The notes under the pieces were generated by a model, which searched no databases, had not been told where the DNA came from, and was given only the letters and a program-made list of their open reading frames with translations. Below, piece after piece: positions 32,156 through 47,301 of a stretch of DNA of 64,000 nt; position 1 is the first letter of the stretch; each line of letters starts with the position of its first letter. This stretch comes from Algoriphagus sanaruensis. GTDB lineage: Bacteria; Bacteroidota; Bacteroidia; Cytophagales; Cyclobacteriaceae. The stretch is taken from the NCBI RefSeq assembly GCF_001593605.1, contig NZ_CP012836.1:3042501-3106500 (forward strand), given 5' to 3'. The position numbers were made by a program, and so were the translations under genes.

Positions 32156-33280
32156 AAGGTTTGTTCATATTTTAAAGAAATGGTTTCTCCACTATTTACC
32201 TGTCAGAGGAACTTTTTAGCCTTTTTTCTCTGGTACTTTTTTCCCCGAAAAAATCGGGGCAGGCTTTGATAAAAAAGTACCCAAAAAATCAAGATTCAAA
32301 AAAGCTCCCACCGCACAAGGCAGGTCGCTGGCCCGCTTTTGAATCTTCCCCACGCGCCTAAATAATTAACGAAAAAGCTCAATTGAATTAAAATCTGATG
32401 TTTTCCTAAATTCTTCATGCACCTTCCCTACAGCCTGGCCCAAGTCTAAAAACCGCCTGTCTTCAAGAGCCACATCCTTCACAATTTGAATTTCAATAGC
32501 ATTAATCCCTGATGATCGCTCTCTTTTTTGGGCACAACGTTACCCGATAATTGATTCTAACAATAACCCCATCGGGGTCATATTTGGGTAGCCCAGCGTT
32601 TCAACGCTGGGTCACAGAAAAATGCAATATGATAGGCGCTGGGATAATATTTCAATTTGAAAACCAAATCTCAATCCCAGCGCAATGGAAAAGATGGGTT
32701 GATTATAAATTTTTATTCAGGCCATTATAAAGATCAACCCGTCAATGGAACTTCCATCGTTCCCTCTCTTTGGTACTTTTTTCTTGATAAAAAAGTACCC
32801 AAAAAATCAAGATTCAAAAATGCTCCTACCGCACAAGGCCGGACGCTGGCCCGCTTTTGAATCTTCCCCACGCGCCCAAATAATTAACGAAGGTGCTCAA
32901 TGTAATTAATTCTGATGTTTCTCTGAATTCTTAACGCCTCTCCCCAGCCTCCAAAAATCGCCTGTCTTCTAGGGCCACATCCTTCACGATTTAAATTACA
33001 ATAGCTTTAATCTCTGATGATCGCTCTGTTTTTTTGATCACAACATTACGCGATAATTGATTCTAACAATGACCCCATCGGGGTCATATTTGGGTAGCCC
33101 AGCGTTTCAACGCTGGGTCACAAAAAAATGCAATATGATAGGCGCTGGGCTAATTATTTAATTTGGAAAAAAGAGTCAATCCCAGCGCAATAGAAAATAA
33201 TCTATTTCCAAATTCAAGGTTCAAAAAATGTGAATTGCAAATCCGAATACAATACCTAAACCCTGGAATTGTCGAGGAGG
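32156..33280 (+). repeat. Compound hairpin repeat array 1
   Basis: About 1.1 kb of non-coding repeats. Module S (32231-32357 and 32771-32873): GGTACTTTTTT/AAAAAAGTACC hairpin, then AAGATTCAAAA...TTTTGAATCTT around a GC-rich loop; the first copy has an extra CCCCGA/TCGGGG hairpin in its loop. Module T (about 32455-32565 and 32958-33069): starts CCTGTCTTC, ends TTGATTCTAACAATGA. Module H (32566-32690 and 33070-33195): GACCCC-ATC-GGGGTC, CCCAGCGTT-TC-AACGCTGGG and GCGCTGGG...CCCAGCGC. The H-to-H period is 504 bases. A decayed E module (ATTGCAAATCCGA) follows at about 33230-33275. The short open frame at 32657-32860 lies in the repeat and is not a gene. Confidence 0.85.
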
Positions 33281-33333
33281 GAAAGGATCAAAAAAACCGA
33301 TGTATTTCCATCTCTAAAACTTCGACATCGAAC

Positions 33334-34059
33334 TTATAAGATACTTTTCAAAAAATTTCGAGCTCGATCCAAATCCTCCTGAGTATCGATCGCTATAGCT
33401 TGATGGGTGGTTTCTACCATCTTGATTTTAACTCCACGTTCAATCAGACGGAGTTGCTCCAACATTTCTACCTCCTCCAAATAACCCTTCGGCCAGGTGG
33501 TAAATTCAGCCAGCAATTCCCTCGTATAGGCATAAACTCCAATATGTTTCCAATAGAACACATCACGGGCTTTTTCCCGATTAAATGGAATCGGTGAGCG
33601 TGAAAAATAAATGGCATTGGAATGTTCATCCACAACCACCTTGACTGCATTCGGATTATAGGATTCATCCTCAGAAATACGGCACATCAAACTAGCCATT
33701 TTAACCTTTGGACGATCAAAGGCTCTTACTAATTCGGAAAGAGAATGAGGATCTTGAAACGGCTCGTCTCCCTGCACATTAACAATCAAATCCGCATCGA
33801 CTACTTCCAAGGCTTCAGCTATTCTATCCGAACCGCTTTGATGGTTTTTAGCGCTAAAATAAACCTTGCCTCCCAAATCTAGGATTTGTTCCCGAATCAA
33901 CTCATGGTCCGTGACCACCCAAACTTCATCAAAAACACCTGTGGCTAAAGTGCTGATATAGGTTCGCTGAATAACCGAAATCCCTCCCAGGTCCTGAACC
34001 AATTTGGCAGGAAGTCGAGTCGAGGCATAACGAGCAGGAATCAGGGCGGCGGTTTTCAT
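33334..34059 (-). CDS. kdsB: 3-deoxy-manno-octulosonate cytidylyltransferase
   Basis: Activates Kdo as CMP-Kdo for lipopolysaccharide core or capsule linker synthesis in the cytoplasm. The start MKTAALIPARYASTRLPAKLVQDLGG holds the nucleotide-binding RxxSxRLPxK; NVQGDEPFQDP is the metal/CTP site; YFSRSPIPFNRE and HIGVYAYTRELL are further KdsB blocks, and QLRLIERGVKI closes the domain. The length of 241 is normal. It lies 8 bases behind the wzc gene, so it is part of the wza-wzc-kdsB operon. Confidence 0.95.
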   Translation of the reverse strand: MKTAALIPARYASTRLPAKLVQDLGGISVIQRTYISTLATGVFDEVWVVTDHELIREQILDLGGKVYFSAKNHQSGSDRIAEALEVVDADLIVNVQGDEPFQDPHSLSELVRAFDRPKVKMASLMCRISEDESYNPNAVKVVVDEHSNAIYFSRSPIPFNREKARDVFYWKHIGVYAYTRELLAEFTTWPKGYLEEVEMLEQLRLIERGVKIKMVETTHQAIAIDTQEDLDRARNFLKSIL

Positions 34060-34067
34060 GAATTGAT

Positions 34068-36530
34068 TTATCGGGTTCTAAACAATTTTCGAATTGATTT
34101 GATCAAATCAAATTTCTGCGACTTCTTGATTTTCTTCTTTTTTTGCTCGAGGTCGTCCCCGTAATAATTGTACATGTACTTATTATTCTGGGAGTACAAA
34201 TAGGTATTGCCATAGCCGTAATTGTAACCTTCATAGTGGTATCCGGAATTGATAATTCCATTGAATACCCCATAGACATTTCTAACCTGCTTGTTATTAA
34301 ACAAGTCATTAATCATGACTAAGTGATCCTTGATGGTATAATTCTGGCGGACTACATACAGGTTAATATCAAAGAGTCGCATCAAATCAATCGTTTCTGA
34401 TACCAAGCCCATTGGAGGAGTATCGAAAATCACGATATCAAAATGATCCTCCAGATACTTTAGAAACTCCAATAATTTGGGAGTTTGAAGCAATTCAGCA
34501 GGGTTAGGAGGAATCACACCAGAAGGCACAAAAAACAAGTTTTCATGCTGGGAAGGAATTACAATTTCTTCTGCTGAGATTTTCCCGATCAAATAAGTAG
34601 AAAGTCCAACTTTCTCCGTGTGGTTAAAATAAGAAGCCAATTTTGGACGTCTCAAATCCGCTCCGACGACCACCGTTTTTTTCGAGCCCAAAGCCATCGC
34701 CGAGGCTAGATTGAGGGAAGTAAACGTTTTTCCTTCCCCAGAAACTGAAGAGGTAACCAGGATTTTTTTGGTGTTTTTACCAGAGGCGAGGTAAGTAAGC
34801 GCTGATCTGAGCGATCTAAAAGATTCAGCTACAGCAGATTTGGGATGCTCCAAAACCACTTTGTTGGTGTCTTTGCTGCTGTATCCAATGACCCCCAATT
34901 GTGGAATCATGAAATGTTTTTTCAAGTCTCGTTGGTCCTTGATACTATCATCAAAAATATCTCTAAGAACCACAAAGCCAAAAGGTAACAAGAAGCCGAG
35001 AGCTATTGCCAATCCATAATTTTGAAGTTTGAGGGGGAATACTAAAGTTCCTTTTTTAGCTAAATCCAAAATGGCATTATCCGAAACGTTAGCTGCTCTA
35101 GCGATACCTGCCTCTGCCCGCTTCTCCAGCAAATAGGTGTATAAAGATTCCCGAAGCTTAAACTCTCTGAAAATAGCAGTGTACTTCGACTCAGACTCTG
35201 GCAAGGTGGCAAATTCGGCATCATATCCTCCAATCTCCCGAAGAATTTGCTGTTTTTGTTTTTGGGTATTGTCAATGAGATTTACAACGTTTTCAAACAA
35301 GGCATCTTGTACCTTATCCATCTGAACATCAATTTTGGTCACCTCTGGATGGTTTTCATTCACGGTTGCCAACAATTTTCTCCGATCCTGAGAAAGTGTA
35401 ACCAATGTTTGAATTAATCCATTGAGCAAAGGATCTGGAACACCAATCACAGAAGGCGCAATCACATCCGAATAATCTCGGGTCTTACGCTCCATGTAAG
35501 CCTTGATTTCTTCGAAATATTGTAATTGGTAATCCAACTCTGCACTTCGGTCATCCAAGGAATTCATTTTCCCCAAAATATTGGAAAACTCTGCAGAAAC
35601 ATCGAGCATCTTGTTTTCCACCTTAAATCGCTGCAGTTCCTGTTCCTTTTCTCGTAGTGAATCTTCCAAAAAACCGAGCTGCTCTTCGATAAAGGAAATG
35701 GTATTTTCTTGAATCTTATTTTTCTCATTCAAGTCATACTCTATGTACGTCTGCATCAAGGCATTGATGTAATCTCTACCTTTTTCTACCACTTTAGTGG
35801 TAGTGGTCAATTTTAAAACCGAAGAATATTCATTGGCCATGCTGACCTGAACAGATTTAGCCAACTTTTCCTCCAAAACTGTAGGATTGACCAGCTTAAA
35901 CAAAATCACATCACCCGTTCTCCCGGGATTAGTCAAAAAGACGGTGAATTTAGATCGTGCAGTTTCAATCTCTTGACCGAAGTTGTAGGTCTTATTTAAA
36001 ATAGATTCATCACTCGATGCCTGAGCAGAATTGACATCCAAAATGCTCAAATCAGCTTGAGTTAATCTAAAATTTTCTTCCGAAAGAATTTCGAGTTCTA
36101 CCGGAGTGTCTGTCACCTGGAGGTGATTCCAGTCTACCTCGAATCGAATGGGAGATCGATCATACAATTCAATATCCTTGATGTTGGTCTTGGCATAATA
36201 CTCGACATCAAAGTGAAGTTTTTTTAATGCCTCCCTAGCCATGTTTTTCGAACGGAGGCGAAGGATGTCATTCTCTAGATTAATACCGGAATTAAAAATA
36301 TTGGAACGGTCCAGGATCCGAGCTTCTGGAGAACTATTGGTCTTAATCACCAAAGACCCATTCACCTCATACTCGTCTACGGTATATCTGTGAAATAGAA
36401 ACGTGGCTGTAACAAAAAGAAAAATAAACAACACATACCACGGCCAATATCGAATGTACTTGGCAACGACGTACCGTATTTCGAGCGCTTTTTCTTCGTT
36501 ATCTAGCTGACTTAAATCCAGCTTCTCCAT
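34068..36530 (-). CDS. wzc: Wzc-like polysaccharide co-polymerase / tyrosine autokinase
   Basis: Inner-membrane protein controlling chain length and export of a capsule or exopolysaccharide. TM1 at about residues 30-50, periplasmic Wzz/coiled-coil region (about 50-490, with long charged helices at 265-300), TM2 at about 495-515. The cytoplasmic BY-kinase has Walker A SSVSGEGKT (near 595), Walker A' VGADLRRP (near 618) and Walker B VIFDTPPMG (near 700). A tyrosine-rich tail (YHYEGYNYGYGNTYLYS, then KYMYNYYGDD, near 755-790) is the autophosphorylation cluster. The Wza gene is directly upstream (stop and start one base apart). Confidence 0.93.
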   Translation of the reverse strand: MEKLDLSQLDNEEKALEIRYVVAKYIRYWPWYVLFIFLFVTATFLFHRYTVDEYEVNGSLVIKTNSSPEARILDRSNIFNSGINLENDILRLRSKNMAREALKKLHFDVEYYAKTNIKDIELYDRSPIRFEVDWNHLQVTDTPVELEILSEENFRLTQADLSILDVNSAQASSDESILNKTYNFGQEIETARSKFTVFLTNPGRTGDVILFKLVNPTVLEEKLAKSVQVSMANEYSSVLKLTTTTKVVEKGRDYINALMQTYIEYDLNEKNKIQENTISFIEEQLGFLEDSLREKEQELQRFKVENKMLDVSAEFSNILGKMNSLDDRSAELDYQLQYFEEIKAYMERKTRDYSDVIAPSVIGVPDPLLNGLIQTLVTLSQDRRKLLATVNENHPEVTKIDVQMDKVQDALFENVVNLIDNTQKQKQQILREIGGYDAEFATLPESESKYTAIFREFKLRESLYTYLLEKRAEAGIARAANVSDNAILDLAKKGTLVFPLKLQNYGLAIALGFLLPFGFVVLRDIFDDSIKDQRDLKKHFMIPQLGVIGYSSKDTNKVVLEHPKSAVAESFRSLRSALTYLASGKNTKKILVTSSVSGEGKTFTSLNLASAMALGSKKTVVVGADLRRPKLASYFNHTEKVGLSTYLIGKISAEEIVIPSQHENLFFVPSGVIPPNPAELLQTPKLLEFLKYLEDHFDIVIFDTPPMGLVSETIDLMRLFDINLYVVRQNYTIKDHLVMINDLFNNKQVRNVYGVFNGIINSGYHYEGYNYGYGNTYLYSQNNKYMYNYYGDDLEQKKKKIKKSQKFDLIKSIRKLFRTR

Positions 36531-36531
36531 A

Positions 36532-37359
36532 TTAAATTCCCCCTGTTACCAAATTTACGATTAAAAGTACTGATGCAAATATACCTCCAAACAAAGCCAA
36601 GGACGAAGTAAGATTATCGGCAGTTCCAACCTGTCTAATTTTCATCGGCTCGAGGTAAAGTATATCATTCGGCTGAATAAAGTAAAATGGACTCGCTAAT
36701 AAGGCTCTGTCATTTAAATTAATCTGATGAATTTTTACTCCATCCCCATATTGACGAATTAAAAACAACTTTTCCCGTTTTGCCAAAAGTGAGGTTTCGC
36801 CGGCTGTTGCCAAGGCATCAAAAATAGTCGCCCTGTTTTTATAGATGATTTTGACGCCAACGGAATTAAACTCTCCCAAGGTGGTATATCGAATTCCTGC
36901 CATCCGCAACCTTACATATACTTCCTCTTTAAAAAAGATATTGATTTTTTCTTGAACCAAATCTTTGGCCTGATCTTCTGTCAAGCCACCGATTTTGATT
37001 TTACCCAGTTTGGGAACTTCCACATAACCTTCCTCATCAATCGAAAACCCGTTCATATACAGAGGATCACTACCTCCTCCACCACCACCTACTCCTCCTC
37101 CAAAACCAATTCCCCCCATTTGCTGAGAACGCTGGAATGAAAACCCTTCCACCAATTCAGGATCTGAACTGGCAAAATCGATCTGCACAATATCAAACGG
37201 CTGGAGAACGTATTTGTAATCCACATCTGCAAATGGAATAAATTCATCCAACTTGTACGCTGTGCTATCCGAAAGATTTTGGAGATAAGTAATTCGCTTA
37301 TTGCTGATGCAAGAAGGTAAAGAAATGATCAGAAATAGATAAAAAACGATTTTTTTCAT
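36532..37359 (-). CDS. wza: Polysaccharide export outer-membrane lipoprotein (Wza-like)
   Basis: Lipoprotein signal ending SLPSC (Cys17). The poly-export domain (about residues 50-155: YKYVLQPFDIVQIDF, then FSIDEEGYVEVPKLGKIKIGGLTEDQAKDLVQEKI) is followed by a SLBB-type domain (about 165-245) and a hydrophobic C-terminal helix ending NLVTGGI. A glycine-rich stretch (GGIGFGGGVGGGGGGSDP) interrupts the export domain before NGFSIDEEGY, an unusual flexible loop. It is the first gene of wza-wzc-kdsB, with a matching promoter upstream. Confidence 0.92.
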   Translation of the reverse strand: MKKIVFYLFLIISLPSCISNKRITYLQNLSDSTAYKLDEFIPFADVDYKYVLQPFDIVQIDFASSDPELVEGFSFQRSQQMGGIGFGGGVGGGGGGSDPLYMNGFSIDEEGYVEVPKLGKIKIGGLTEDQAKDLVQEKINIFFKEEVYVRLRMAGIRYTTLGEFNSVGVKIIYKNRATIFDALATAGETSLLAKREKLFLIRQYGDGVKIHQINLNDRALLASPFYFIQPNDILYLEPMKIRQVGTADNLTSSLALFGGIFASVLLIVNLVTGGI

Positions 37360-37381
37360 TCAGTCCAAGGGTCTCTTGGAT

Positions 37382-37411
37382 CAAATATAGACAAATTTCC
37401 TATCCTTGGAA
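37382..37411 (-). promoter_or_regulatory. Promoter of the wza-wzc-kdsB operon
   Basis: On the minus strand TTC (37411-37409), 19 bases, then TATATTTG (37389-37382), a full match for the TAnnTTTG box and one mismatch in the upstream TTG. It lies 22 bases before the wza ATG. Confidence 0.65.
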
Positions 37412-37492
37412 TTTGCAATTGGCTCTAAAAAACTGATTGCTAAACTTCCCTTTTCGCATGGCTATTTTCTACCTTAGCCAATAATTCATCCT

Positions 37493-38416
37493 ATGAAATT
37501 CCGTTTCTCCAAGCCTGATGATATCCCTGCGATCGTGGATCTCCTTCGTAATAGCTTAGGTGAAGGGCTTATCCCAAAATCAGAATCACTTTGGACTTGG
37601 AAACATCTGGCAAATCCTTTTGGCCCCTCCCCGGTTTTAATTGCAGAAAGCGATCATCAAATCATAGGGGTAAGAGCTTTTATGCGGTGGAAGTTTGTTG
37701 AAAATGGAAAAGAAATCCATGCCGTAAGAGCGGTAGATACGGCGGTTTCTCCTTTGCACCAAGGAAAAGGATTATTCAAATCGCTCACTTTAAATCTTTT
37801 GGATGAATTAAAATCTGAAGGTTTGGATTTGGTGTTTAATTCCCCCAACAAACAAAGCACTCCCGGTTATCTAAAAATGGGCTGGGAAAAATATGGGAAG
37901 CTTCCGATCCATATTAAACTTCAATTCCCATCCAGTCATCCGGTTGCAGAAAGAAGCGATTGGGAAGCTATCCAAAGCCAACTTAATTTCTTGGAGAGTA
38001 CAGCTCCCCAAGAAGGAAGATCAACCCTTTGGCAACCAGGATACTTCAATTGGAGGTTTCGAGATTGCCCCATTTTCAAGTATCATTTTGTTACCGATTT
38101 CAAGGATCAACTCTTGATTTATCGAATCAAATCCCATGCTTGGGGTAAGGAATTTAGAATTTGTGATTGGATTGATTCTACCATTTCTTCCCCTGAGCAA
38201 AAAGTTAATTTTTTAAACCGAGTAAAGGAAGAAATTCAAAAATCCGGAGCAGCGTTAACAACACTTTCCGGACTTTCCACCACATATTCAAAAGGCTTAG
38301 GATTTTTGCCCTCTCTCAAACTTGGCCCTCTCCTTACCCTAAAAAAAGTAAACGAATCATTTACGGGTTTACATGAAAATTGGAAGTGGAGTTTAGGAGA
38401 TTTGGAGCTTTTTTAG
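37493..38416 (+). CDS. GNAT family N-acetyltransferase
   Basis: 307 residues. The GNAT acetyl-CoA-binding region is VDTAVSPLHQGKGLFKSLTLNLLDEL (Q/R-x-x-G-x-G/A type, about residues 83-108), followed by FNSPNKQSTPGYLKMGWEKYG. A second, less conserved half (about 160-307) may bind the acceptor. Placed inside the polysaccharide locus, it probably acetylates an amino sugar or other intermediate (inference). It is divergent from wza and convergent with the next membrane-protein gene. Confidence 0.8.
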   Translation: MKFRFSKPDDIPAIVDLLRNSLGEGLIPKSESLWTWKHLANPFGPSPVLIAESDHQIIGVRAFMRWKFVENGKEIHAVRAVDTAVSPLHQGKGLFKSLTLNLLDELKSEGLDLVFNSPNKQSTPGYLKMGWEKYGKLPIHIKLQFPSSHPVAERSDWEAIQSQLNFLESTAPQEGRSTLWQPGYFNWRFRDCPIFKYHFVTDFKDQLLIYRIKSHAWGKEFRICDWIDSTISSPEQKVNFLNRVKEEIQKSGAALTTLSGLSTTYSKGLGFLPSLKLGPLLTLKKVNESFTGLHENWKWSLGDLELF

Positions 38417-38434
38417 ACTTACCCACTTTTGGTC

Positions 38435-39997
38435 CTACAATCCTCCTTTTCGGCGGAAATAGGAAACTTCAAAAAATTGAAGAGATTCAGTTTTTGTAAG
38501 TTCAAAGGCATCCTCGGAAATCCGATTCATGAAATTTGCGATTTGAGGATCAGGTTCATCAAGGTAGGAGATCACTTTAAACGCTCCAATTTCTTTAAGA
38601 CTTGGGACTTGATTTCGCTGTAATATCTTTTGTTGAAATGGACTTCGGGCAACCCATCCCATAAAAAAAACATCATGGGAAGAATCCCTTAAATACAAGG
38701 ACTGGTAATTTTCTAGAGTGACCCATTCTAAAAATTGAAGTTGGCCCTGTTCGCTATTTTCAAGAATACTCAGAAGTTCTTTTTCCTTCTCTTGATCTTC
38801 CAATCCACCTTTGATGAACTGTACCGCATGAATCAAAAAGAATCCCAGCAATATCCCCGTGGATAATCGGTAATAGTTTGCACTTCGAATACTAGGCTTA
38901 TCCTCCAAAAAAAAGAAATACAAAAGAGGCAAAAAACAAAGGAATAAGACCCTCATAGGAAGGGTTAGAAAAATACTGAGTGCCAAAAGGGAAGAAATCC
39001 CAAGCAGTAAAACTTGGAAACGTTTTTTAGGTCTTAAAATCCCCATTCCAACAATTGCTAGCCAAATCAGTAAACCTGAATTAAATTTTTCAGAAAAAAG
39101 AGTTATGAAAGTCGTTTCAAGGATCAACTTGAGCCTTGGTAATTCAAATCGGATTTGGTCTAGGTTTTCTTTTAATTGAATTAAATCCTGTTCCTCTAGC
39201 TCCCCTTCAGCTGCAATCCATTGGGAAAAAAAGTAGTAAGGCGATGAGTCATCGAATTCTCCAAGACGCATTTTTTCCCGCATGACCGGATGATCAATTA
39301 CCGAAGCTCTCAAACGGTTAAAATGGATGTAATCTGAAAATTCAGAATGGCTTTGATGATAGAGTTGTGTTCCAATAAAAACCACCCCCATCAAAGCAAT
39401 AAAAAGAAATGGTTTGGTAGAAAGCATTTTAATAAACTCAAACTTTCTACTCACACAAAGTGCTCCCAAAAAACTTAGGCCAAGCAGTAGGCTTGCCTCC
39501 CATCGGATGAGTAAGGATAACCCTACCAAAAAAACACCTACCCATTCCTCCTTTTTTTGACCCTTCGAATGAAAAAACATCACCGCAAAGCGCATAAAGC
39601 CCGCAAAAGCAAGCCATCCAGCGACTAGTGTAAATTGCAGAAAGAAAGAAAAATGCAGCGTGCAGATCAGAAAAAAGGTACGCAACATCAGCTTTATGTC
39701 TGAGCTTAAATCAAGCTTATCCAGTGAGCTATTTAAACTTGAAAATCCAATAAAATTGAACAAAAACCATGTTGCTGCATACCAATTGAATAAAGGCTGA
39801 AGGATAAAAAGTTTGGAAAAAACCCATGAGATCAAGGGATGCAAGAACACAGCAAAATATTCAAAGTCCCCAGTATATCTTCCTGAGACCAACCATTGCA
39901 TCATGAAATCATCATTGGTTTGATACCTCCAAGGCAAAAACCAAGACAGTCCCAGTAAGAGTCCTACTCCCAAATTCCATGTTCGAACAGTACTCAT
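38435..39997 (-). CDS. Polytopic membrane protein, GT-C-like
   Basis: 520 residues with about 10-11 predicted membrane helices and a soluble C-terminal domain of about 130 residues. An early loop motif QTNDDFMMQWLVSG, right after the first helix, is in the place where GT-C enzymes carry catalytic acidic residues. It overlaps its upstream neighbour by ATGA and shares its layout. A lipid-linked-sugar transferase or polymerase role is plausible; the family is not recognised with confidence. Confidence 0.65.
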   Translation of the reverse strand: MSTVRTWNLGVGLLLGLSWFLPWRYQTNDDFMMQWLVSGRYTGDFEYFAVFLHPLISWVFSKLFILQPLFNWYAATWFLFNFIGFSSLNSSLDKLDLSSDIKLMLRTFFLICTLHFSFFLQFTLVAGWLAFAGFMRFAVMFFHSKGQKKEEWVGVFLVGLSLLIRWEASLLLGLSFLGALCVSRKFEFIKMLSTKPFLFIALMGVVFIGTQLYHQSHSEFSDYIHFNRLRASVIDHPVMREKMRLGEFDDSSPYYFFSQWIAAEGELEEQDLIQLKENLDQIRFELPRLKLILETTFITLFSEKFNSGLLIWLAIVGMGILRPKKRFQVLLLGISSLLALSIFLTLPMRVLFLCFLPLLYFFFLEDKPSIRSANYYRLSTGILLGFFLIHAVQFIKGGLEDQEKEKELLSILENSEQGQLQFLEWVTLENYQSLYLRDSSHDVFFMGWVARSPFQQKILQRNQVPSLKEIGAFKVISYLDEPDPQIANFMNRISEDAFELTKTESLQFFEVSYFRRKGGL

Positions 39998-41508
39998 TTT
40001 GAAAGAAGGTATTGGGTTTGATTACGGATAGTCCAAGAACCTAAGGTATCCGAATAATGCCAAGAATCTGGTAAACTATCGATAGGTTGATATATCAGAA
40101 GAGAAGGTTTATAATCCAAATTCCAAGAATCCATCAAAGATGCCTTATCCCAAAATCCTGGAGAAATTGGAATACTTTTCCCAAGCAAGAAAGAAATTCC
40201 AGGATTCCTATAGATACTCAAAAACTGGCTATCATTATTCAAATAAGAGGGCATTTCGCTTAAACATCCAAGCAATTCTTCATCTAATAGAATGATTGAA
40301 TTATTGGGTACCCGATAGACCGAATTACTTTGCCATAGAGGCTCCTCTAGCCCAAAAGGTTTCCACCAAACCCCCAAAAACACGCAGAATACGGCAGTAG
40401 AAGTAAAAATTGTAAGATTAAATGGAGTAAAATTTCGATTACTAATCCCAAAAATTGCCAAAATCCAGAAGCATGAAAAAAATATTCCTAATCGAAAAAA
40501 ATAAACATTACTCCCCAAATGGAGAATAAATGGCAAAGCAACTAAGAGTAGATGATGCGTCGTCACTCTTTCTCTAAACCTTCCAAAAACATACCCCAAA
40601 ACCGAGATAATAAACACTAAAACAAGATGATTCCATTCATCAGTAATATGCGTCAACCATGCCACCACCAATGAACTTACGAGTGCAATTCCCCATAGGA
40701 TTGGCTTTGTAAATTGCCCAACCAACAACCAAGGGATAAACAGTAAAAGCACCCAAAACCAACCCACCAAATTGATTTTAAGTAAGAGGGCTAAATCATG
40801 ATCCGTGCGAGAAATCGGCCCATTCCAAGACTGTTCAAATCGAGCAAAAAAGGAGTCGTTTAAAAAGAACTGAAACAAGGTTTCTAAAGCCAAAAAAGGA
40901 ATTACTAGGCCAATCCCTTGCTTCCAAGTACTCCAAGAGACCTTACTTTCATAAAGAATCAAGCCCATAGTAACCAAACCTAAACCCAAAGCAACAGTAG
41001 CTTTGACATACAGAAGGAGCGCCAAAAGCAACCCCAATTTTAAGGACTTTAGGATATTTGACTTTTCATCCAAAGAATAAAGCCAAGCCGAGACGAAGAA
41101 TAGGGCAAGCGAATTATAGGAAAGGGTTTGGGGCAAAAAACTATAACTAATAAACAAGCCTAATGCAGAAATCAAATACCACTCTAGTCCGCTAAATTGT
41201 GGATTCCTCTTCTTTGCCCAAGAGGCAATAAACCAAGCTCCAAGAATTACTGAGATTAGCCGAATCAATCTCAACTCAATCACTGAGAATCTAATCTGAA
41301 AAAGCTGATAAAACAATTTAAAAAATAGATCATAATAAGTCAGACCATAGCTGTTCTCCTGATTCGGATCTGCAAACAATGCATACAAGCCCTCATCTGA
41401 AATATCAAAGCCCCGATTGATCCCAAGTACCACCAGAAAAACTGATATCAATAAACCAGCAAGCAAAATCAAATGGTCAACCTTGCTAGTGCCGATAATC
41501 GATTTCAT
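39994..41508 (-). CDS. Polytopic membrane protein, GT-C-like
   Basis: I chose the ATG at 41508 (MKSIIGTSKVDHL); a TTG four codons earlier is possible. 504 residues with about 11-12 membrane helices. GFDISDEGLYALFADPNQEN in the first extracytoplasmic loop resembles the acidic catalytic loop of GT39/GT83-type enzymes, and a soluble C-terminal part follows. It is translationally coupled to the next gene, so the two may transfer sugars together at the periplasmic face. The substrate is unknown. Confidence 0.65.
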   Translation of the reverse strand: MKSIIGTSKVDHLILLAGLLISVFLVVLGINRGFDISDEGLYALFADPNQENSYGLTYYDLFFKLFYQLFQIRFSVIELRLIRLISVILGAWFIASWAKKRNPQFSGLEWYLISALGLFISYSFLPQTLSYNSLALFFVSAWLYSLDEKSNILKSLKLGLLLALLLYVKATVALGLGLVTMGLILYESKVSWSTWKQGIGLVIPFLALETLFQFFLNDSFFARFEQSWNGPISRTDHDLALLLKINLVGWFWVLLLFIPWLLVGQFTKPILWGIALVSSLVVAWLTHITDEWNHLVLVFIISVLGYVFGRFRERVTTHHLLLVALPFILHLGSNVYFFRLGIFFSCFWILAIFGISNRNFTPFNLTIFTSTAVFCVFLGVWWKPFGLEEPLWQSNSVYRVPNNSIILLDEELLGCLSEMPSYLNNDSQFLSIYRNPGISFLLGKSIPISPGFWDKASLMDSWNLDYKPSLLIYQPIDSLPDSWHYSDTLGSWTIRNQTQYLLSK

Positions 41509-41536
41509 GGAGGGGATCAAATGGAGAAATTTTGAA

Positions 41537-42523
41537 TTAGGTAGTTAGACTAGGTACCCCAATTAATTCCCCTACTTGGCCCATGGAAAGACTTTGCATC
41601 CCAAACCTATCACGGAGAGATTGGAAATGCTCCAAGACTTCCAACAATTCCTTCATGGAGCTTTGGGGATCATTTCCAAAGTTATGGGGGTGCCACCACA
41701 GGTGATAGGATTCTCCATTTCGGGCAGCTGCTTCCATCTCCTGTTTGATCCGATTTAATCGGAGTCGATTCATAATTCCTAATCCTTTTGGGCTAAAAGG
41801 CCTCAATATTCGAGAGGCAGGAAGGATTAAGGGTTCGTTGGGATACGCTTTCAACTCTTCAAGAAAAAAGGTACTTCGCTCACCCACTTCAAAAAAACAG
41901 TCTGCTGATCGGATGATTTTTTTTCCCAAATCTTCATGCTGGGTTTCCTGCCAAAACCAATTTTTAGGATTTCCACGAACCACTTCATAGCCTTCCTCCA
42001 AACAAATTCCTAAATAGAGTTCATTGATATGGTTTCTGGGAAATACAAGTGATTTTAAGCGTGTTTCAAATTTATCTTCTGCGATTCGCTGGGTAGCTTG
42101 AATGTCCTGCCGAAACTGCTCAGGACTTTGGCCCCGCATCAAGGTATAGTAATGCGCATAGGTATGGGATCCAAGCTCTTGTCCTGGAGTGTCCACTATC
42201 TGGCGAATCAGATCTGGAGCAAAATGAACTTCAGGTTTGATTCCATGCTGTTTGGCCCATTCATAAGCAGACAAATTACGATTCCGATAGGAAGGCTTGT
42301 ATTCAGGAGAGTAATACTTCCATTCCTCTTCATTTTCAGCAAACAGCATCCCAACCGTAGCCCAGGTTACGGCAATTTCATGCTTGGCAAAACTTTCCAG
42401 CATCTGAGGAATGACTTTTCGGGTATTGGAAAAATAATCAGGACGGTAGGTCGTACCCACCTTATCAAAAATCCCCCAAAGGAGTTCGAAGTCCAAGCTA
42501 ATAATCAGAGTACTGTTTTTCAC
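41537..42523 (-). CDS. Polysaccharide deacetylase (NodB-type) family protein
   Basis: 328 residues with no signal peptide. NodB motifs: D11 in IISLDFELLWG, H120 and H124 in GSHTYAHYY (metal triad), and VFPRNHIN in the place of the R-x-P-x-G loop. GESYHLWWHPHNFG supplies the C-terminal catalytic His region. It likely removes acetyl groups from a cytoplasmic or lipid-linked sugar intermediate. It precedes the two GT-C-like genes, separated by 28 bases, and repeat array 2 begins about 90 bases upstream of its start. Confidence 0.85.
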   Translation of the reverse strand: MKNSTLIISLDFELLWGIFDKVGTTYRPDYFSNTRKVIPQMLESFAKHEIAVTWATVGMLFAENEEEWKYYSPEYKPSYRNRNLSAYEWAKQHGIKPEVHFAPDLIRQIVDTPGQELGSHTYAHYYTLMRGQSPEQFRQDIQATQRIAEDKFETRLKSLVFPRNHINELYLGICLEEGYEVVRGNPKNWFWQETQHEDLGKKIIRSADCFFEVGERSTFFLEELKAYPNEPLILPASRILRPFSPKGLGIMNRLRLNRIKQEMEAAARNGESYHLWWHPHNFGNDPQSSMKELLEVLEHFQSLRDRFGMQSLSMGQVGELIGVPSLTT

Positions 42524-42612
42524 GGAGCAAAAAGCGTATGGATAAAAATAGGGGGATTTTTTGGTTTTAGAAATTGGGTTGGGTTTGGCTTAGCGTGATG
42601 TGCTGTCTTTTC

Positions 42613-43800
42613 GGACCCCATCGGGGTCAGATATGGATAGCCCAGCGTTTTAACGCTGGGTCAAATAGGTATGCGGAATAATGCGCGCTGGGCAAATAAT
42701 TCCAGTTGAAAAGCAAGAGTCAATCCCAGTGAAATGGAAAAGATTGATTGTAATTTTTTTATTCAGTCCATTCTCAAGATTAACCCGTCAGAGAATCCTC
42801 TATTCCCTTCTTTCTATGGCACTTTTTTCTTGATAAAAAAGTACCCAAAAAATCAAGATTCAAAAATGCTCCTACCGCACACGGCCGGTCGCTGGCCCGC
42901 TTTTGAATCTTCCCCACGCGCCCAAATTATGAACGAAGGTGCTCAATTGTATTTATTTCTGAATTCTTTACCCCTCACCCCTAACACCAAAAACCGCCTG
43001 TCTTCTAGGGCCACATCCTTCACCCCCCCAATCACAATTGACTATAATTTTGATGATCGCTCTCTTTTTTGGGCACAACGTTACCCGATAGTTGATTCTA
43101 ACAATGACCCCATCGGGGTCATATATAGGTAGCCCAGCGCTTTAACGCTGGGTTAAATAAATATGCGAAATGAAAAGCGCTGGGCTATTATTTCAATTTG
43201 GAAAACAAAACTCAATCCCAGCGCAATGGAAAAATTGGTTGATTATTAAATTTTATTCAAGTCATTCGTAAGATCAACCCGTCAAAGGAACTTCCATAGT
43301 TCCCTCTCTTTGGTACTTTTTTCTTGATAAAAAAGTACCCAAAAAATCAAGATTCAAAAATGCTCCTACCGCACATGGCCGGGCACTGGCCCGCTTTTGA
43401 ATCTTCCCCACGCGCCTAAATAATCAACGAAGGTGATCAAAGTATTTAATTCTGAATTCTTCACTTCTCTAGCCTGCCTCCAAAAACCGTCTGTATTCTA
43501 GGGCCACATCCTTCACGATCTAAATCCACTTTCAAATTGAAAATAAATGTTCGCTTTTCAATTTTACCCCATCGGGGTCAGATATGGGTAGCCCAGCGTT
43601 TTAACGCTGGGAAAATGATGTGAAAAATATGGATATGCGCTGGGCTAATATTTCAATTTGGAAAACAAAACTCAATCCCAGCGCAATGGATAGGCATAGA
43701 CAATTATCAATTTTTAAATTCATGGTTCAATGAATCCGGATTGCAAATCCGAGGATATTACCTCGAGATTGCAAATCTCGAGGAGCGAGATCTCGAGGAG
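42613..43800 (+). repeat. Compound hairpin repeat array 2
   Basis: Same family and orientation as array 1, in the order H-S-T-H-S-T-H-E. H modules lie at about 42613-42740, 43105-43232 and 43565-43690 (periods about 492 and 460). S modules lie at about 42817-42925 and 43311-43420 with GTACTTTTTT-type hairpins; the first has G-G-C-A in one arm, so its stem is imperfect. The T region is at about 43000-43105 and shorter at 43490-43560. The array ends with an E module at about 43737-43800 (GGATTGCAAATCC, then arms CCTCGAGATT/AATCTCGAGG). The open frames at 42734-43132 and 43730-43944 are repeat sequence. Confidence 0.88.
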
Positions 43801-43924
43801 CGAAGGAGCGAAAAAACAAACCCTAAATCACCTGACTCAAAAGCCAAAATCGCCTTACCGATCACTTCCTTTGATGAACTCCAAAAAAAATCCACATTTT
43901 TGCGAGGCCTAACCACAAATTCTC

Positions 43925-45070
43925 TTGGCAGAAAAACGAATTAAAGTACTTCATCTCATCAAAAGCCTTGGTCGAGGCGGCGCGGAAAAACTGATTCCAG
44001 AGACGGCCTTGGTCCATGATCAAGAAAAATTCGAATTTCATTGCCTTTACTTTTACCATCAGGAACAAAACATCGTCGATGAATTAATCGATGCCGACAT
44101 TCAAGTTCACTTAATCCCTTCCAGTAACCTGGGTTTATTTTTCCAAGTCAAAAAAGTTCGGGAGTTTATTATTCAGCATCAGTTTGATTTGATTCACGCC
44201 CATTTGCCCTGGGCTGGTATCCTCGCTCGATTTGTCGGTAAAAATCTTCAAATCCCCATTGTCTACACCGAACATAACACTTGGGACCGATACAATAAGG
44301 TTTCCTACTGGGGCAACAGACTTACCTTTAAGCAGCAGGATGTGGCAATTGCCGTTTCCAACGAGGTTGCGTTATCCATGCAATTAAATGCCCCTTGGGA
44401 TCCGTATCGAAAAGGGGGCAGGCTTAAAATAAAGGTGGTTCAAAATGGAGTCAATACAACGGCATTTACGAGATTAGAACAAAACTCAGATCAAGTAACC
44501 GCTCTGAAAAAGAAGCTTTCCATTCCAAAGAATGCTCCTGTGATAGGGAAAGTTGCTGTTTTCCGCTCGCAAAAAAGATTATGGCTTTGGGTTGAGCTAG
44601 CACTTCGAATTATAAAACAAAAACCGGAAACCCATTTTTTATTGGTTGGGGATGGGGAATGGAGAGGACGGATTGAAAAACAAATTCAGGAATCTGGATT
44701 TGGAGCTCATTTCCATTTGGTGGGAGTTCAAAAGGAAGTGATCCCCTATCTGAGTTGCATGGACATTTACCTGAGCACTTCCGAATTTGAGGGGCTACCC
44801 ATTGCCATGCTGGAAGCCATGTCCTGTAAAATCCCCGTAGTTGCCACAAGAGCAGGTGGAATAGGCGAAGTAATCCAACATGGCATACAGGGATTTCTTT
44901 CAGAAGTGGATCAATGGGAGGAATTGGAGGAATACTGTGTTAAACTTTGCAATGATTTGGAATTGCATCAAAATTTAGGGAATGAGGCTCGGCAGCGGGT
45001 CATTCAGAATTTTTCCATGATTCGTATGGTTAGTGAATTGGAAGATATTTATCGAAGAGTGTTGAAGTAA
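43925..45070 (+). CDS. GT4 family glycosyltransferase, isolated on the plus strand
   Basis: 381 residues, GT-B fold. N-terminal domain: VLHLIKSLGRGGAEKLIPE. C-terminal donor site: VGDGEWRGRIEKQI, LVGVQKEVIPYLSCMDIYLSTSEFEGLPIAMLEAMSCKIPVVATRAGGIGEVI, with the E-x7-E pair in EGLPIAMLE. An in-frame stop 15 bases upstream leaves TTG at 43925 as the only sensible start. Repeat arrays in the same orientation flank it on both sides, and it runs against all neighbouring glycosyltransferases. It could have arrived with, or been moved by, the repeats. Confidence 0.9.
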   Translation: MAEKRIKVLHLIKSLGRGGAEKLIPETALVHDQEKFEFHCLYFYHQEQNIVDELIDADIQVHLIPSSNLGLFFQVKKVREFIIQHQFDLIHAHLPWAGILARFVGKNLQIPIVYTEHNTWDRYNKVSYWGNRLTFKQQDVAIAVSNEVALSMQLNAPWDPYRKGGRLKIKVVQNGVNTTAFTRLEQNSDQVTALKKKLSIPKNAPVIGKVAVFRSQKRLWLWVELALRIIKQKPETHFLLVGDGEWRGRIEKQIQESGFGAHFHLVGVQKEVIPYLSCMDIYLSTSEFEGLPIAMLEAMSCKIPVVATRAGGIGEVIQHGIQGFLSEVDQWEELEEYCVKLCNDLELHQNLGNEARQRVIQNFSMIRMVSELEDIYRRVLK

Positions 45071-45159
45071 AGGGAAGTTTTTTTAAAGGTTGTTTTGATT
45101 CGTAGTCCTTAATCCGAATTTCAAATCATTCCCAATTCGAGGTTCGCTCTTTGATTAAT

Positions 45160-45966
45160 TTTCCCATAGGAATTGGTATATGGCCCAGCGTTTTAACGCT
45201 GGGTCACAGAAACATGGAAAATGATAAGGGCTGGGCTATTATTTCAATTTGGAAAACAAGACTCCATCCCAGCGCAATGGAAAGGAATAGACAATTATCA
45301 ATTTTCACATTCAAGGCTCAATCCATCCGGATTACAAATCCGAGGATATTACCTCGAGATTGCAAATCTCGAGGAGCATATTTATTTCTTAATAACCCGT
45401 CAGAGGAACCACCTTCGTTTCCTTTCTCCAAACTTTTGAAGCCAAAAGTTTGCAAAAGCTTGTGGCCTGAATCCAGTCTTCAAACTGGTTGAATTCTTCA
45501 ATCAAATCCTAGCCTTCCATCCAGTTTGATTTTTGGTGTCGGGTCTCGGCTAAATTCAGGCGGATCTCCCTCGAATTCTCGAGTGAGCTAACCTGAATAC
45601 TTCACGCCTCTACCCTTCCTCCAAAAACCGCCTGTCTTCTAGGGCCACATTCTTTACGATTCAAATCTCAATTGACTATAATCTTGATGATCGCTCTGTT
45701 TTTTGGGCACAACATTACCCGATAATTGATTCTATCAATGACCCCATCGGGGTCGGATATGGGTAGCCCAGCGTTTTAACGCTGGGAAAATGATGCGCAA
45801 AATATGGTAAAGGCGCTGGGCTAATATTTCAATTTGAAATCCAAATCTCAATCCCAGCGCAATGGAAATGAATGGACAATTATCAATTTTCAAATTCAGG
45901 GTTCAATCAAACCAGATTACAAATCCGAGGATATTACCTCGAGATTGCAAATCTCGAGGAGCGAAA
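45160..45966 (+). repeat. Compound hairpin repeat array 3
   Basis: Same family and orientation. H modules lie at about 45162-45282 (decayed first hairpin) and 45738-45866; E modules at about 45327-45377 and 45912-45962, each with CCTCGAGATT/AATCTCGAGG arms. Between them the leader AACCCGTCAGAGGAAC that precedes S modules is followed not by the usual S sequence but by a different hairpin, AAACTTTTG-AAGC-CAAAAGTTT (45430-45451), and a second stem region. A T region is at about 45630-45735. The open frames here are repeat-derived. The remaining bases between 45071 and 46083 hold nothing else I can name. Confidence 0.85.
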
Positions 45967-46083
45967 AGAGCGAAAAGAGCATAATCGCTCTGCTCAATCC
46001 ACCACCCTCAACCAATATTCCGGAAACAAAAAAGGTCGGAGAATTCCCCGACCTACACGAATTGATTTTAAATTCTTAAACCT

Positions 46084-47301
46084 CTAAATCGCCGCTTCAG
46101 CGAGTTCTCGTTTTCTTCGCTCCTCCTCCACAATGCGATTGTAAATTTCAGCCCGCTTCTTAATTCGATTGGTTTTCTCCCAATCCATAAATGCCACAAT
46201 CACAAAAAGCATAAAGTACATGATCTGGGATTTTTGCCGGATGATAATGCCCAAATTCGACATCACAAAGGTCATGGAAATGGAAATGGAAATGAACACC
46301 ACCCCAGCCATTTTTACCATCGCCGGGGCGATCCGGATATAATCGATAAAGCTCTTTTTCAAAATCCGGCTAAACATATAGATATAGAGGGCATTTTCAA
46401 TAGAAACTACAATTCCTAGTGCATTTGGGGAATCAATAAACAGTGGCCTAAACCAAAAAGTAAATAACTTCATAGGAAGGTTGTAGTTACTCATATCCAC
46501 TGCTGATCCTGCCGACTGTAGCCGTTGAGCGTTTAATGAGGTCTCCTCCTCAAAACTTTGTATAACGTTATTAGGATCATATCCTAAAAAAACCAACAAA
46601 TCCTCATACACATAAATACTCATTCCAATCGCAAACACCACCACTGCATACTTTTGGTAGAGAGGTACTTTTTCACGCCCCAAAACAAATCCTACCCCCA
46701 TTCCAATCAAGACCGCGAATAGAATATGGGGTCGAATCATGTAACAAATAAAACTTCCTAGAAGAATGAGAAAAATTCGCTTTTGAGGCCAGGACAATCC
46801 ATAAGTCAGAAATCCCAATCCCGCAAAAATATAGGCACCTTTTCCCAAAGATGCCGTCCAAAAATGCATATTCGGCAAAAACATAAAAATCGTAATTGCA
46901 TCCCATCCCTCAAACTTGGGATTGAAACGCAAATTCTCCTTCATAAAACAATAAAAGTAGACAAAGCCCCAAAAACCCACCCAGGTGGAAAGGAACATCA
47001 TCATATCATAATTGAAGCCCAACCATTTAGCAAATGGATAATTGATCCATTCAATAAATAAGGTTCCTGGCACAAAGGCATCAAACCAATTTTTGTAATG
47101 CTCATAACTTCGAAAATACATTATAGAATCAGACCTATTGACCTGGGCATAAGCCCAATAGACCAACCCAAAAAACATATGATACCAATACATTTGGTTT
47201 AATAGCCCTGCTTTCAACCATTTGTGTTCTTTTTGAAGGTTATTCAAAATCGGCTGAGAGACAAAAAAAAGCAGGATGACTAAGAGTACGGCGCCGAGCA
47301 A
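46084..47301 (-). CDS. Polytopic membrane protein of the polysaccharide locus, possible polymerase
   Basis: 405 residues with about 10 membrane helices and a charged C-terminal tail (KKRAEIYNRIVEEERRKRELAEAA). An in-frame stop lies 12 bases upstream of the TTG at 47301 and the first ATG is 37 codons in, so TTG is the likely start. NRSDSIMYFRSYEHYKNWFDAFVPGTLFIEW, then SLGKGAYIFAGLG, has the feel of Wzy/EpsG-like polymerases, which lack strong motifs. A polymerase or flippase-related role is inference from position only. Confidence 0.6.
   Translation of the reverse strand: MLGAVLLVILLFFVSQPILNNLQKEHKWLKAGLLNQMYWYHMFFGLVYWAYAQVNRSDSIMYFRSYEHYKNWFDAFVPGTLFIEWINYPFAKWLGFNYDMMMFLSTWVGFWGFVYFYCFMKENLRFNPKFEGWDAITIFMFLPNMHFWTASLGKGAYIFAGLGFLTYGLSWPQKRIFLILLGSFICYMIRPHILFAVLIGMGVGFVLGREKVPLYQKYAVVVFAIGMSIYVYEDLLVFLGYDPNNVIQSFEEETSLNAQRLQSAGSAVDMSNYNLPMKLFTFWFRPLFIDSPNALGIVVSIENALYIYMFSRILKKSFIDYIRIAPAMVKMAGVVFISISISMTFVMSNLGIIIRQKSQIMYFMLFVIVAFMDWEKTNRIKKRAEIYNRIVEEERRKRELAEAAI

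Follow-up and report, generated by a model that had tools for sequence, protein, structure and literature searches.

Arrays of repetitive extragenic palindromes (REPs) together with REP-associated tyrosine transposases (RAYTs) are already known, as are REP arrays at exopolysaccharide genes, from Thauera sp. MZ1T, a betaproteobacterium. In that strain, arrays of GTAG repeats directly flank clustered genes for exopolysaccharide synthesis and transport (PMC3733652; this and the other papers are cited from the portions available). This precedent lessens the surprise of the locus described here, a set of hairpin arrays in a 64,000-nucleotide stretch of the Algoriphagus sanaruensis genome (C1:3042501-3106500 of a single contig of 3.88 Mb; hereafter, the window). 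The Thauera repeats differ in being of the GTAG-1 kind with 5-bp stems, and the available text on them describes no multi-hairpin unit; Bacteroidetes is absent from the list of GTAG repeats by phylum as available in the same paper.

More generally, the arrays resemble the GTAG-type REPs and REPtrons of RAYT/TnpA_REP enzymes (PMC3733652, PMC6006769) in consisting of short intergenic palindromes, many of them with a GTAG-like foot, in having species-specific arms that co-vary, and in having copies beside genes for Y1 transposases. They differ in that the palindrome is one stem of a three-stem element, set in units of 0.3-0.5 kb that run head to tail and are regionally confined in the window's genome. 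Tandem mosaics of several REP types and spacers also recall bacterial interspersed mosaic elements (BIMEs) and REPINs (REP doublets forming hairpins), but BIMEs alternate REP orientation (PMC2817692) and REPINs are inverted pairs (PMC6006769), an arrangement that the head-to-tail units of the arrays do not have. Two groups of Y1 enzymes are also relevant, as far as the available sections describe them: TnpA_Y1 subclass 1.2, which is entered with 'no' for REPs in the published table and is generally without typical IS200 end structures, and TnpA_REP subclass 2.6 of Bacteroidetes, reported with 'atypical secondary structures' that have copies elsewhere and lack a GT[AG]G foot (PMC6006769).

We conclude that the arrays are probably compound, non-autonomous REP-like repeats that join hairpins of two Y1 (HUH) transposase classes. 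Hairpins linked to two such classes would thus stand in one amplified unit, and IS200-like enzymes with subclass 1.2 motifs, published without REPs, would gain a candidate repeat partner. As far as our searches show, the three-stem family (H), its compound arrays and REP-like partners for these enzymes are new, and a literature search found no paper on the three-stem element among the matches listed (10 of 2,161 for one query).

Organization of the arrays

Profile searches with nhmmer place 7 H, 5 S/T, 5 F and 4 E modules in the window, in three arrays on the + strand at about 32190-33279 (array 1), 42614-43786 (array 2) and 45176-45962 (array 3). Within each array the modules follow the order (H)-S/T-F-H-...-E, as listed below in window coordinates.

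32190..32366, + strand: S/T module, array 1, the S with a nested CCCCGAAAAAATCGGGG palindrome (nhmmer, sequence)
32447..32560, + strand: F box, array 1 (nhmmer)
32566..32691, + strand: H element with three stems, array 1 (nhmmer, covariance model)
32729..32884, + strand: S/T module, array 1 (nhmmer)
32951..33066, + strand: F box, array 1 (nhmmer)
33071..33196, + strand: H element, array 1
33190..33279, + strand: degenerate E module, array 1 (nhmmer)
42614..42740, + strand: H element, first in array 2
42774..42929, + strand: S/T module, array 2 (nhmmer)
42987..43101, + strand: F box, array 2 (nhmmer)
43106..43232, + strand: H element with the top model score, array 2
43269..43424, + strand: S/T module, array 2 (nhmmer)
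43480..43585, + strand: F box, array 2 (nhmmer)
43566..43690, + strand: H element, array 2
43694..43786, + strand: E module, array 2, reading TTTGCAA-N8-TAATATCC on the minus strand
43925..45070, + strand: group 1 glycosyltransferase gene between arrays 2 and 3 (Pfam PF00534)
45176..45283, + strand: H element without stem H1 (foot ATGG), array 3
45285..45377, + strand: E module, array 3
45391..45464, + strand: S module of alternative form, array 3 (nhmmer)
45621..45734, + strand: F box, array 3 (nhmmer)
45740..45868, + strand: H element, array 3
45870..45962, + strand: E module, array 3

The initial annotation of the window had described three same-orientation arrays of hairpin modules H, S, T and E with a period of about 460-505 bases in arrays 1 and 2 and no reading frame common to the copies. 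The modules are real: the H palindrome has 14 matches (7 sites on both strands) against none in 100 shuffles, folding of five sample modules as single-stranded DNA yields z-scores from -3.8 to -5.6, and a model search confirmed and extended the set. The four modules and their shared orientation were borne out; the module list had to be extended by the F box, the S/T slot proved not to hold one sequence, and the spacing from unit to unit within arrays is 459-585 nt. As described, no frame is common to the copies, since the open reading frames (ORFs) of at least 100 aa that overlap modules (42734-43132 and 45151-45492) do not recur at other copies in the ORF listing, no search of the modules against proteins having been made. 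At the gathering cut-off, Rfam reports only one tRNA across the whole window and nothing in the arrays, where the best match at E up to 1 is Acido-Lenti-1 (23.5 bits against a cut-off of 37).

The H element and its covariation

The H element has three stems: H1, ACCCC-ATC-GGGGT; H2, in which a foot TAG is followed by CCCAGCGTT-TT-AACGCTGGG; and H3, GCGCTGGG ... CCCAGCGC followed by AATGGAAA. The H2 hairpin can be described as a GTAG or ATAG foot, a stem CCCNNNGTT and a loop of TT or TC. Read from the alignment of the 24 copies in the window's genome, the foot is GTAG in 13, ATAG in 5 and [AT]TGG in 6; the last form is found in five of the six H copies that stand first in an array and in the copy after E in array A7, and in none of the 17 others.

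We aligned 48 H sequences, comprising 20 of the 24 own copies and 28 from relatives. All three stems covary, with 89.1% of cells paired and double changes in 15 of 23 pairs, a result reached in 0 of 500 shuffles. Relatedness among the sequences inflates this shuffle control, and the comparison with slid structures, which pair in 27-48% of cells, favours the proposed structure because it derives from one of the aligned sequences. The H2 arms are AGCG in the window's genome and AGGG, AGCT or CGGG in others, the partner arm following each time; such co-change between species is what is expected of REP families, as is the combination of a conserved stem with variable arms. By eye, H3 is the most constant part, and an array in G033 (genomes, contigs and loci carry the prefixes G, C and L) keeps H1 and H3 and has no H2. 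An alternative H2-H3 pairing, seen in the centroid fold of one own copy, was rejected because on inspection it is not conserved in relatives.

S, T and F modules

The S/T slot holds alternative hairpins, GGTACTTTTTT.. and CCAACTTTTG.., as well as a further T form. The same H-S-T order recurs in G067 with a period of 268-311 nt and different sequences: the S arms there are TTCTTTTTT/AAAAAAGAA or GTTCTTTTGG/CCAAAAGAAC, and the T arms are GACGCAGC/GCTGCGTC or GATTTGGC/GCCAAATC, compared with GATTCAAAA/TTTTGAATC for T in the window's genome. T and a short S-T linker stem covary, with double changes in 8 of 13 predicted pairs (RNAalifold, 18 S/T sequences); covariation of the S hairpin was judged by eye. 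F, which was absent from the initial annotation, is a conserved box between T and H (AAAAACCGCCTGTCTTCWAGGGCCACAT..., 18 copies). Its profile found no match at E 0.01 or better in 20 stretches of relatives, and its exact pattern gave four matches in a collection of genome contigs (which may omit the window's genome and near ones), all in unrelated phyla and judged to be chance. As F was not found elsewhere, the 0.5-kb compound form that includes it may be special to the window's lineage. Short palindromes nested in the loops of S, H2 and T, with the outer stem intact, were seen at window positions 32243-32259, at L213:2195-2214 and at L212:16735-16895.

Hairpins shared with Y1 transposase genes

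Y1_Tnp proteins occur in 50 of the 52 genomes of the genus, and the window's genome has five. None of these lies within the 98-kb region that holds its arrays. The initial annotation, which saw no transposase in the three arrays, had suggested a possible parallel to REP-like elements moved by RAYTs. That parallel stands insofar as Y1 genes flanked by the same hairpins exist: within one genome, they are seen for H2 in G067 and for the loop, spacing and tail of E in the window's genome. The H2-linked enzyme is IS200-like with subclass 1.2 motifs, not a strict RAYT.

Judged by its letters, H2 is the same hairpin as that found at the flanks of IS200-like TnpA genes bearing subclass 1.2 motifs. At four of 34 Y1 loci (L035, L200, L202 and L207), the gene is flanked by TAGCCC/TTGCCC-type hairpins in the H2 format. 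The proteins encoded there pass the IS200 cut-off and fail the RAYT cut-off; they measure 143-148 aa and carry the motifs DH[IV]H and YI.NQK.HH, the length and motifs that the available part of the published table prints for subclass 1.2 (PMC6006769). The YxxxQxxHH motif is present at 22 of the 34 Y1 loci, 26 of which were readable, with three others and one class-2-like. A generalised H2 pattern, TAGCCCNNNGTTTYAACNNNGGG, has 47 exact matches in nine genomes and none for a reversed control; by coordinates, 37 lie in H elements and four within 150 nt of a Y1 gene (one in the window's genome, three in G067), while six lie in neither among the H elements and Y1 genes listed. Ten of the 11 exact matches in the window's genome (reversed control, 0) are in arrays and one is about 80 nt upstream of the TnpA gene of L035, where the format is shared and the arms differ. 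The clearest case is G067, in which the H2 hairpin of the arrays is letter-identical to one that stands at either side of an IS200-like Y1 gene: TAGCCCCGGGTTTTAACCCGGGG occurs in H elements (C6:240836, 540888, 546931 and 550094) and on both sides of the TnpA gene (C7:336506 and 337140), and TAGCCCACGGTTTTAACCGTGGG occurs in H elements (C6:240559 and 438921) and beside the same gene (C7:337076). Compared with the published picture of subclass 1.2, this gene thus has flanking hairpins with amplified copies elsewhere in its own genome, and L035, L202 and L207 have flanks of like format.

By the same kind of comparison, the E hairpin, with its TTTGCAA loop and TAATATCC tail, is the hairpin beside a RAYT gene, that of L039 in the window's genome, the class-2-like locus among the 34. 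The protein passes the RAYT cut-off (90.3 bits against 80) and has the motifs NHIH and YIHQNP, which it shares with subclass 2.6 in the accessible description (PMC6006769). About 50 nt past its stop codon stands GGGTGAAGTTTGCAACTTCACCCTAATATCC, compared with CCTCGAGATTTGCAATCTCGAGGTAATATCC on the minus strand in the E modules of arrays 2 and 3. Among 242 loci searched for TTTGCAA-N8-TAATATCC with zero mismatches, the only matches are the three E modules in arrays 2 and 3 (overlapping loci included) and the L039 flank; we count exact matches only, since shuffled sequence yields the motif with up to two mismatches (7 in 1.22 Mb). E has no GT[AG]G foot and differs from the structures reported for subclass 2.6 in being embedded as the tail of compound arrays.

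Weak matches to the H model (E up to 1) at the 34 Y1 loci fall within about 300 nt of the gene in 17 of 19 cases, which come from seven loci only and in part represent one place on both strands. Other Y1 genes of the genus (flanks of L184, L188, L189, L194 and L038) have palindrome sets of their own, such as CGTTCC-NNN-GGAACG and AAGTCTTCAGACTT, so several REP-like families seem to coexist.

Copies across the genome

We searched 204 kb of the window's genome by direct-repeat analysis and three nhmmer rounds. On the + strand this gave 24 H and 9 E modules together with, at more than 30 bits, 19 S or S/T (of 20 listed) and 18 F (of 19 listed), every one within 3074690-3172924 (98 kb, 2.5% of the genome); the 16 minus-strand rows are H palindromes read in reverse. 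In blastn against the whole genome, a 410-nt unit had 27 matches among the best 40 of 52 candidates and a 280-nt H-E piece had 24 among the best 40 of 53, all on the + strand of the same stretch. A whole-genome search with a covariance model, a step that the initial annotation had recommended, gave 24 H among the best 65 of 971 candidates, and the matches listed fall in the 98-kb stretch. The modules thus form ten arrays (A1-A10), not three, in ten intergenic gaps of a polysaccharide-gene region and all on the + strand, and the 24 H copies in these gaps show the multiple intergenic occurrence typical of REPs. E had been described as ending the arrays, and it does so in seven of the ten, the others being A7 (an H after E), A8 (only an E-like remnant) and A5 (no E). 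The remnant in A8 is fused to an F box (L031 about 5756; 3132256 in the genome).

Eight arrays stand between tandem genes, A2 between divergent and A3 between convergent ones, and the genes that they separate mostly form multi-gene blocks. Nine of ten proteins scanned in or beside the array gaps have a Pfam match: a cytidylyltransferase, two Wzc-like proteins (AAA_31, one with GNVR and Wzz), Poly_export, a polysaccharide deacetylase, three kinds of glycosyltransferase and a DegT aminotransferase. No common target motif was seen by eye at the array ends. Two further patterns were examined and set aside: a similarity specific to first or last copies is weak without stem H1 (150 of 5000 permutations), and identity within arrays (0.647) is close to that between arrays (0.641), so that only two neighbouring pairs show recent tandem duplication. 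Between A9 and A10, C1:3163928-3171058 (L032/L033) holds five successive genes of 440-471 aa, the first and last of which look alike.

Distribution in relatives

The initial annotation had allowed that the repeats might be limited to one genome and lack covariation. H (model R1) occurs in 48 of the 52 genus genomes, each at least 90% complete, in up to 52 copies, and its stems covary. A family-wide draw of 118 genomes from 76 genera yielded it in 27 genomes (three from the window's genus) and 19 genera, and an order-wide draw of 98 genomes in six (four from the window's genus, two weak); these distant counts are lower bounds because the model was trained on genus sequences and large searches apply stricter filters. 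In G009, 30 of the 52 H copies share a strand and stand within 145 kb of a homologous polysaccharide region. H clusters in relatives also adjoin a lanthipeptide-type dehydratase with a LytTR/histidine-kinase pair, DUF6266/DUF5675 and terpene synthase modules, and a module that, from protein size, we take to be TonB-receptor-like. With the window's region as blastp reference, part or all of the arrays examined in G067 and G033 lie outside recognisable polysaccharide genes, and strict confinement as in the window's genome is therefore not universal.

Orientation is uniform in relatives as well. Among complete relatives, all 52 neighbouring H copies up to 1.5 kb apart are on the same strand (30 in G009, 13 in G087 and 9 in G021, with none so close in G058), and within 20 kb 83 pairs share a strand and one does not. 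We looked for a rule relative to replication, with dnaA as the origin marker, and rejected it because no orientation was consistent: the window's cluster, on roughly the other side of the chromosome from dnaA, is minus when the dnaA strand is taken as reference, and the far-side clusters of G021 are plus.

Origin of the arrays and alternative explanations

Based on these observations, we infer that Y1 enzymes would have cut and moved the hairpins. Cutting would act, now or formerly, on single-stranded DNA in trans, hairpins inserting next to or inside each other would give rise to compound units, and arrays of one orientation would then grow and spread locally by duplication and recombination in the gaps of variable loci, chiefly the polysaccharide locus. 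H2 and E would supply the recognisable transposase hairpins, and H1, H3, S, T and F may be passengers or parts for enzymes still to be found. The uniform orientation (52 of 52, 83 against 1, and ten of ten arrays) fits duplication and block spread from a single founder in each region better than independent insertions. In a wider version of this scheme, which seems to us doubtful, a Y1 repeat system based partly on the little-studied subclass 1.2 would combine the hairpins of several transposases in standard multi-hairpin cassettes, place these in a single orientation across the polysaccharide locus and further accessory ones, and so set the seams for exchange of surface-polysaccharide genes between lineages.

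Several points weigh against a Y1 origin. Presence is not strictly coupled: G014 (24 H) and G059 (6 H) have H without a Y1 match, and G062, G022, G031 and G002 have Y1 without H. The AGCG arms of the window match no transposase flank of their own genome exactly (the L035 flanks are ACGG and CGGG), and a second subclass 1.2-like TnpA of G067 (L215) has different flanks and no TAGCCC. H3, S, T and F have no demonstrated link to a transposase, all copies share one orientation, unlike inverted REPIN or BIME pairs, and no direct sign of movement (empty site or polymorphism) was obtained. The subclass 1.2 label comes from motifs compared with a published table and not from a tree; the E motif was chosen after both sites had been seen, is exact in three of nine E copies and was searched in loci rather than the whole genome; and hairpins near Y1 genes are partly expected because the rest of these loci is mostly coding.

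Gene order bears on a different explanation, that the arrays are recombination seams kept by selection at cassette borders for the exchange of polysaccharide and accessory cassettes. We compared three relatives, with 33, 33 and 18 orthologues in the respective stretches (reciprocal best hits, at least 35% identity over half the length), excluding four named spurious ORFs and ORFs wholly inside an array, and scored adjacency as kept when genes lie within 4 kb in the same order and orientation. Pooled over the relatives, 2 of 11 array gaps retain adjacency, compared with 7 of 11 other gaps that measure 100 bp or more and 15 of 20 shorter ones (22 of 31 non-array gaps overall; one-sided Fisher test, 0.040 against long gaps and 0.003 against all). 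Consistent with seams, homologues of the glycosyltransferase at 3086425 and the deacetylase at 3084037 shift in order and orientation around arrays among G067, G087, G065, G017 and the window's genome, and H clusters of relatives border accessory modules too. However, the arrays occupy long inter-operon gaps, where order shifts regardless, and the sample is small with rows and relatives that are not independent, so the difference is suggestive only; moreover, direct repeats do not explain single-gene inversions, and variable regions may simply tolerate repeats. We think selection for seams unlikely. Whether the arrays set break points of this fast-changing locus can now be tested.

Other functions are less probable still. 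The covarying stems could belong to regulatory or terminator RNA in polysaccharide operon transcripts, acting in attenuation, antitermination or at mRNA ends, and in A1, A4, A6, A9 and A10 E does lie beyond the stop codon of the gene on the right, at a distance of 28-56 nt, with promoter-like sites mildly over-represented in arrays 2-3 (15 against 8.0 expected, sd 2.8, by a sigma-70 consensus that may not suit the phylum). Yet the arrays keep the + orientation whether their neighbours are tandem, divergent or convergent, terminator-like sites show no excess at 42450-46150 (6 against 4.8 expected), all Rfam families score below cut-off in the arrays, and the elements of relatives also stand beside unrelated genes, which makes such a role improbable. 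A role as chromosome-topology sites (gyrase or nucleoid-protein sites, or supercoil barriers), as proposed for some BIMEs, would suit the same-strand clusters in variable regions, but we consider it very improbable for elements that are confined to 2.5% of the window's genome, are patchy among species and follow no simple orientation rule relative to dnaA. Hardly credible, finally, is descent from one larger transposon with a decayed coding gene, a possibility that the initial annotation had raised: compound units, block-like arrays and the [AT]TGG foot of array-first copies would fit it, but the ORF listing has no ORF of at least 100 aa common to the copies, relatives rebuild the compound from different sequences with the same stems, and a blastn comparison of a 750-base piece with 72,556 plasmids and 50,697 phages yielded one 62-base plasmid match and no phage match.

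Gene modules next to H clusters

Two gene modules recur near H clusters of relatives. One is a pair formed by a gene of about 248 aa (often starting MAKQAG) and a DUF5675-like gene, found at L164:727-1903 (G009) and at L098, L106, L107, L109, L111, L173 and L224. In some relatives it occurs with a LytTR/histidine-kinase pair and an ORF of about 860 aa, which where scanned encodes a lanthipeptide-type dehydratase; the module is possibly a dispersed peptide-product system. The other consists of a 200-aa protein with no Pfam match, a terpene synthase and a DUF6266 protein, and lies at L168:11518-14285 (G009) and L224:7809-10574 (G065).

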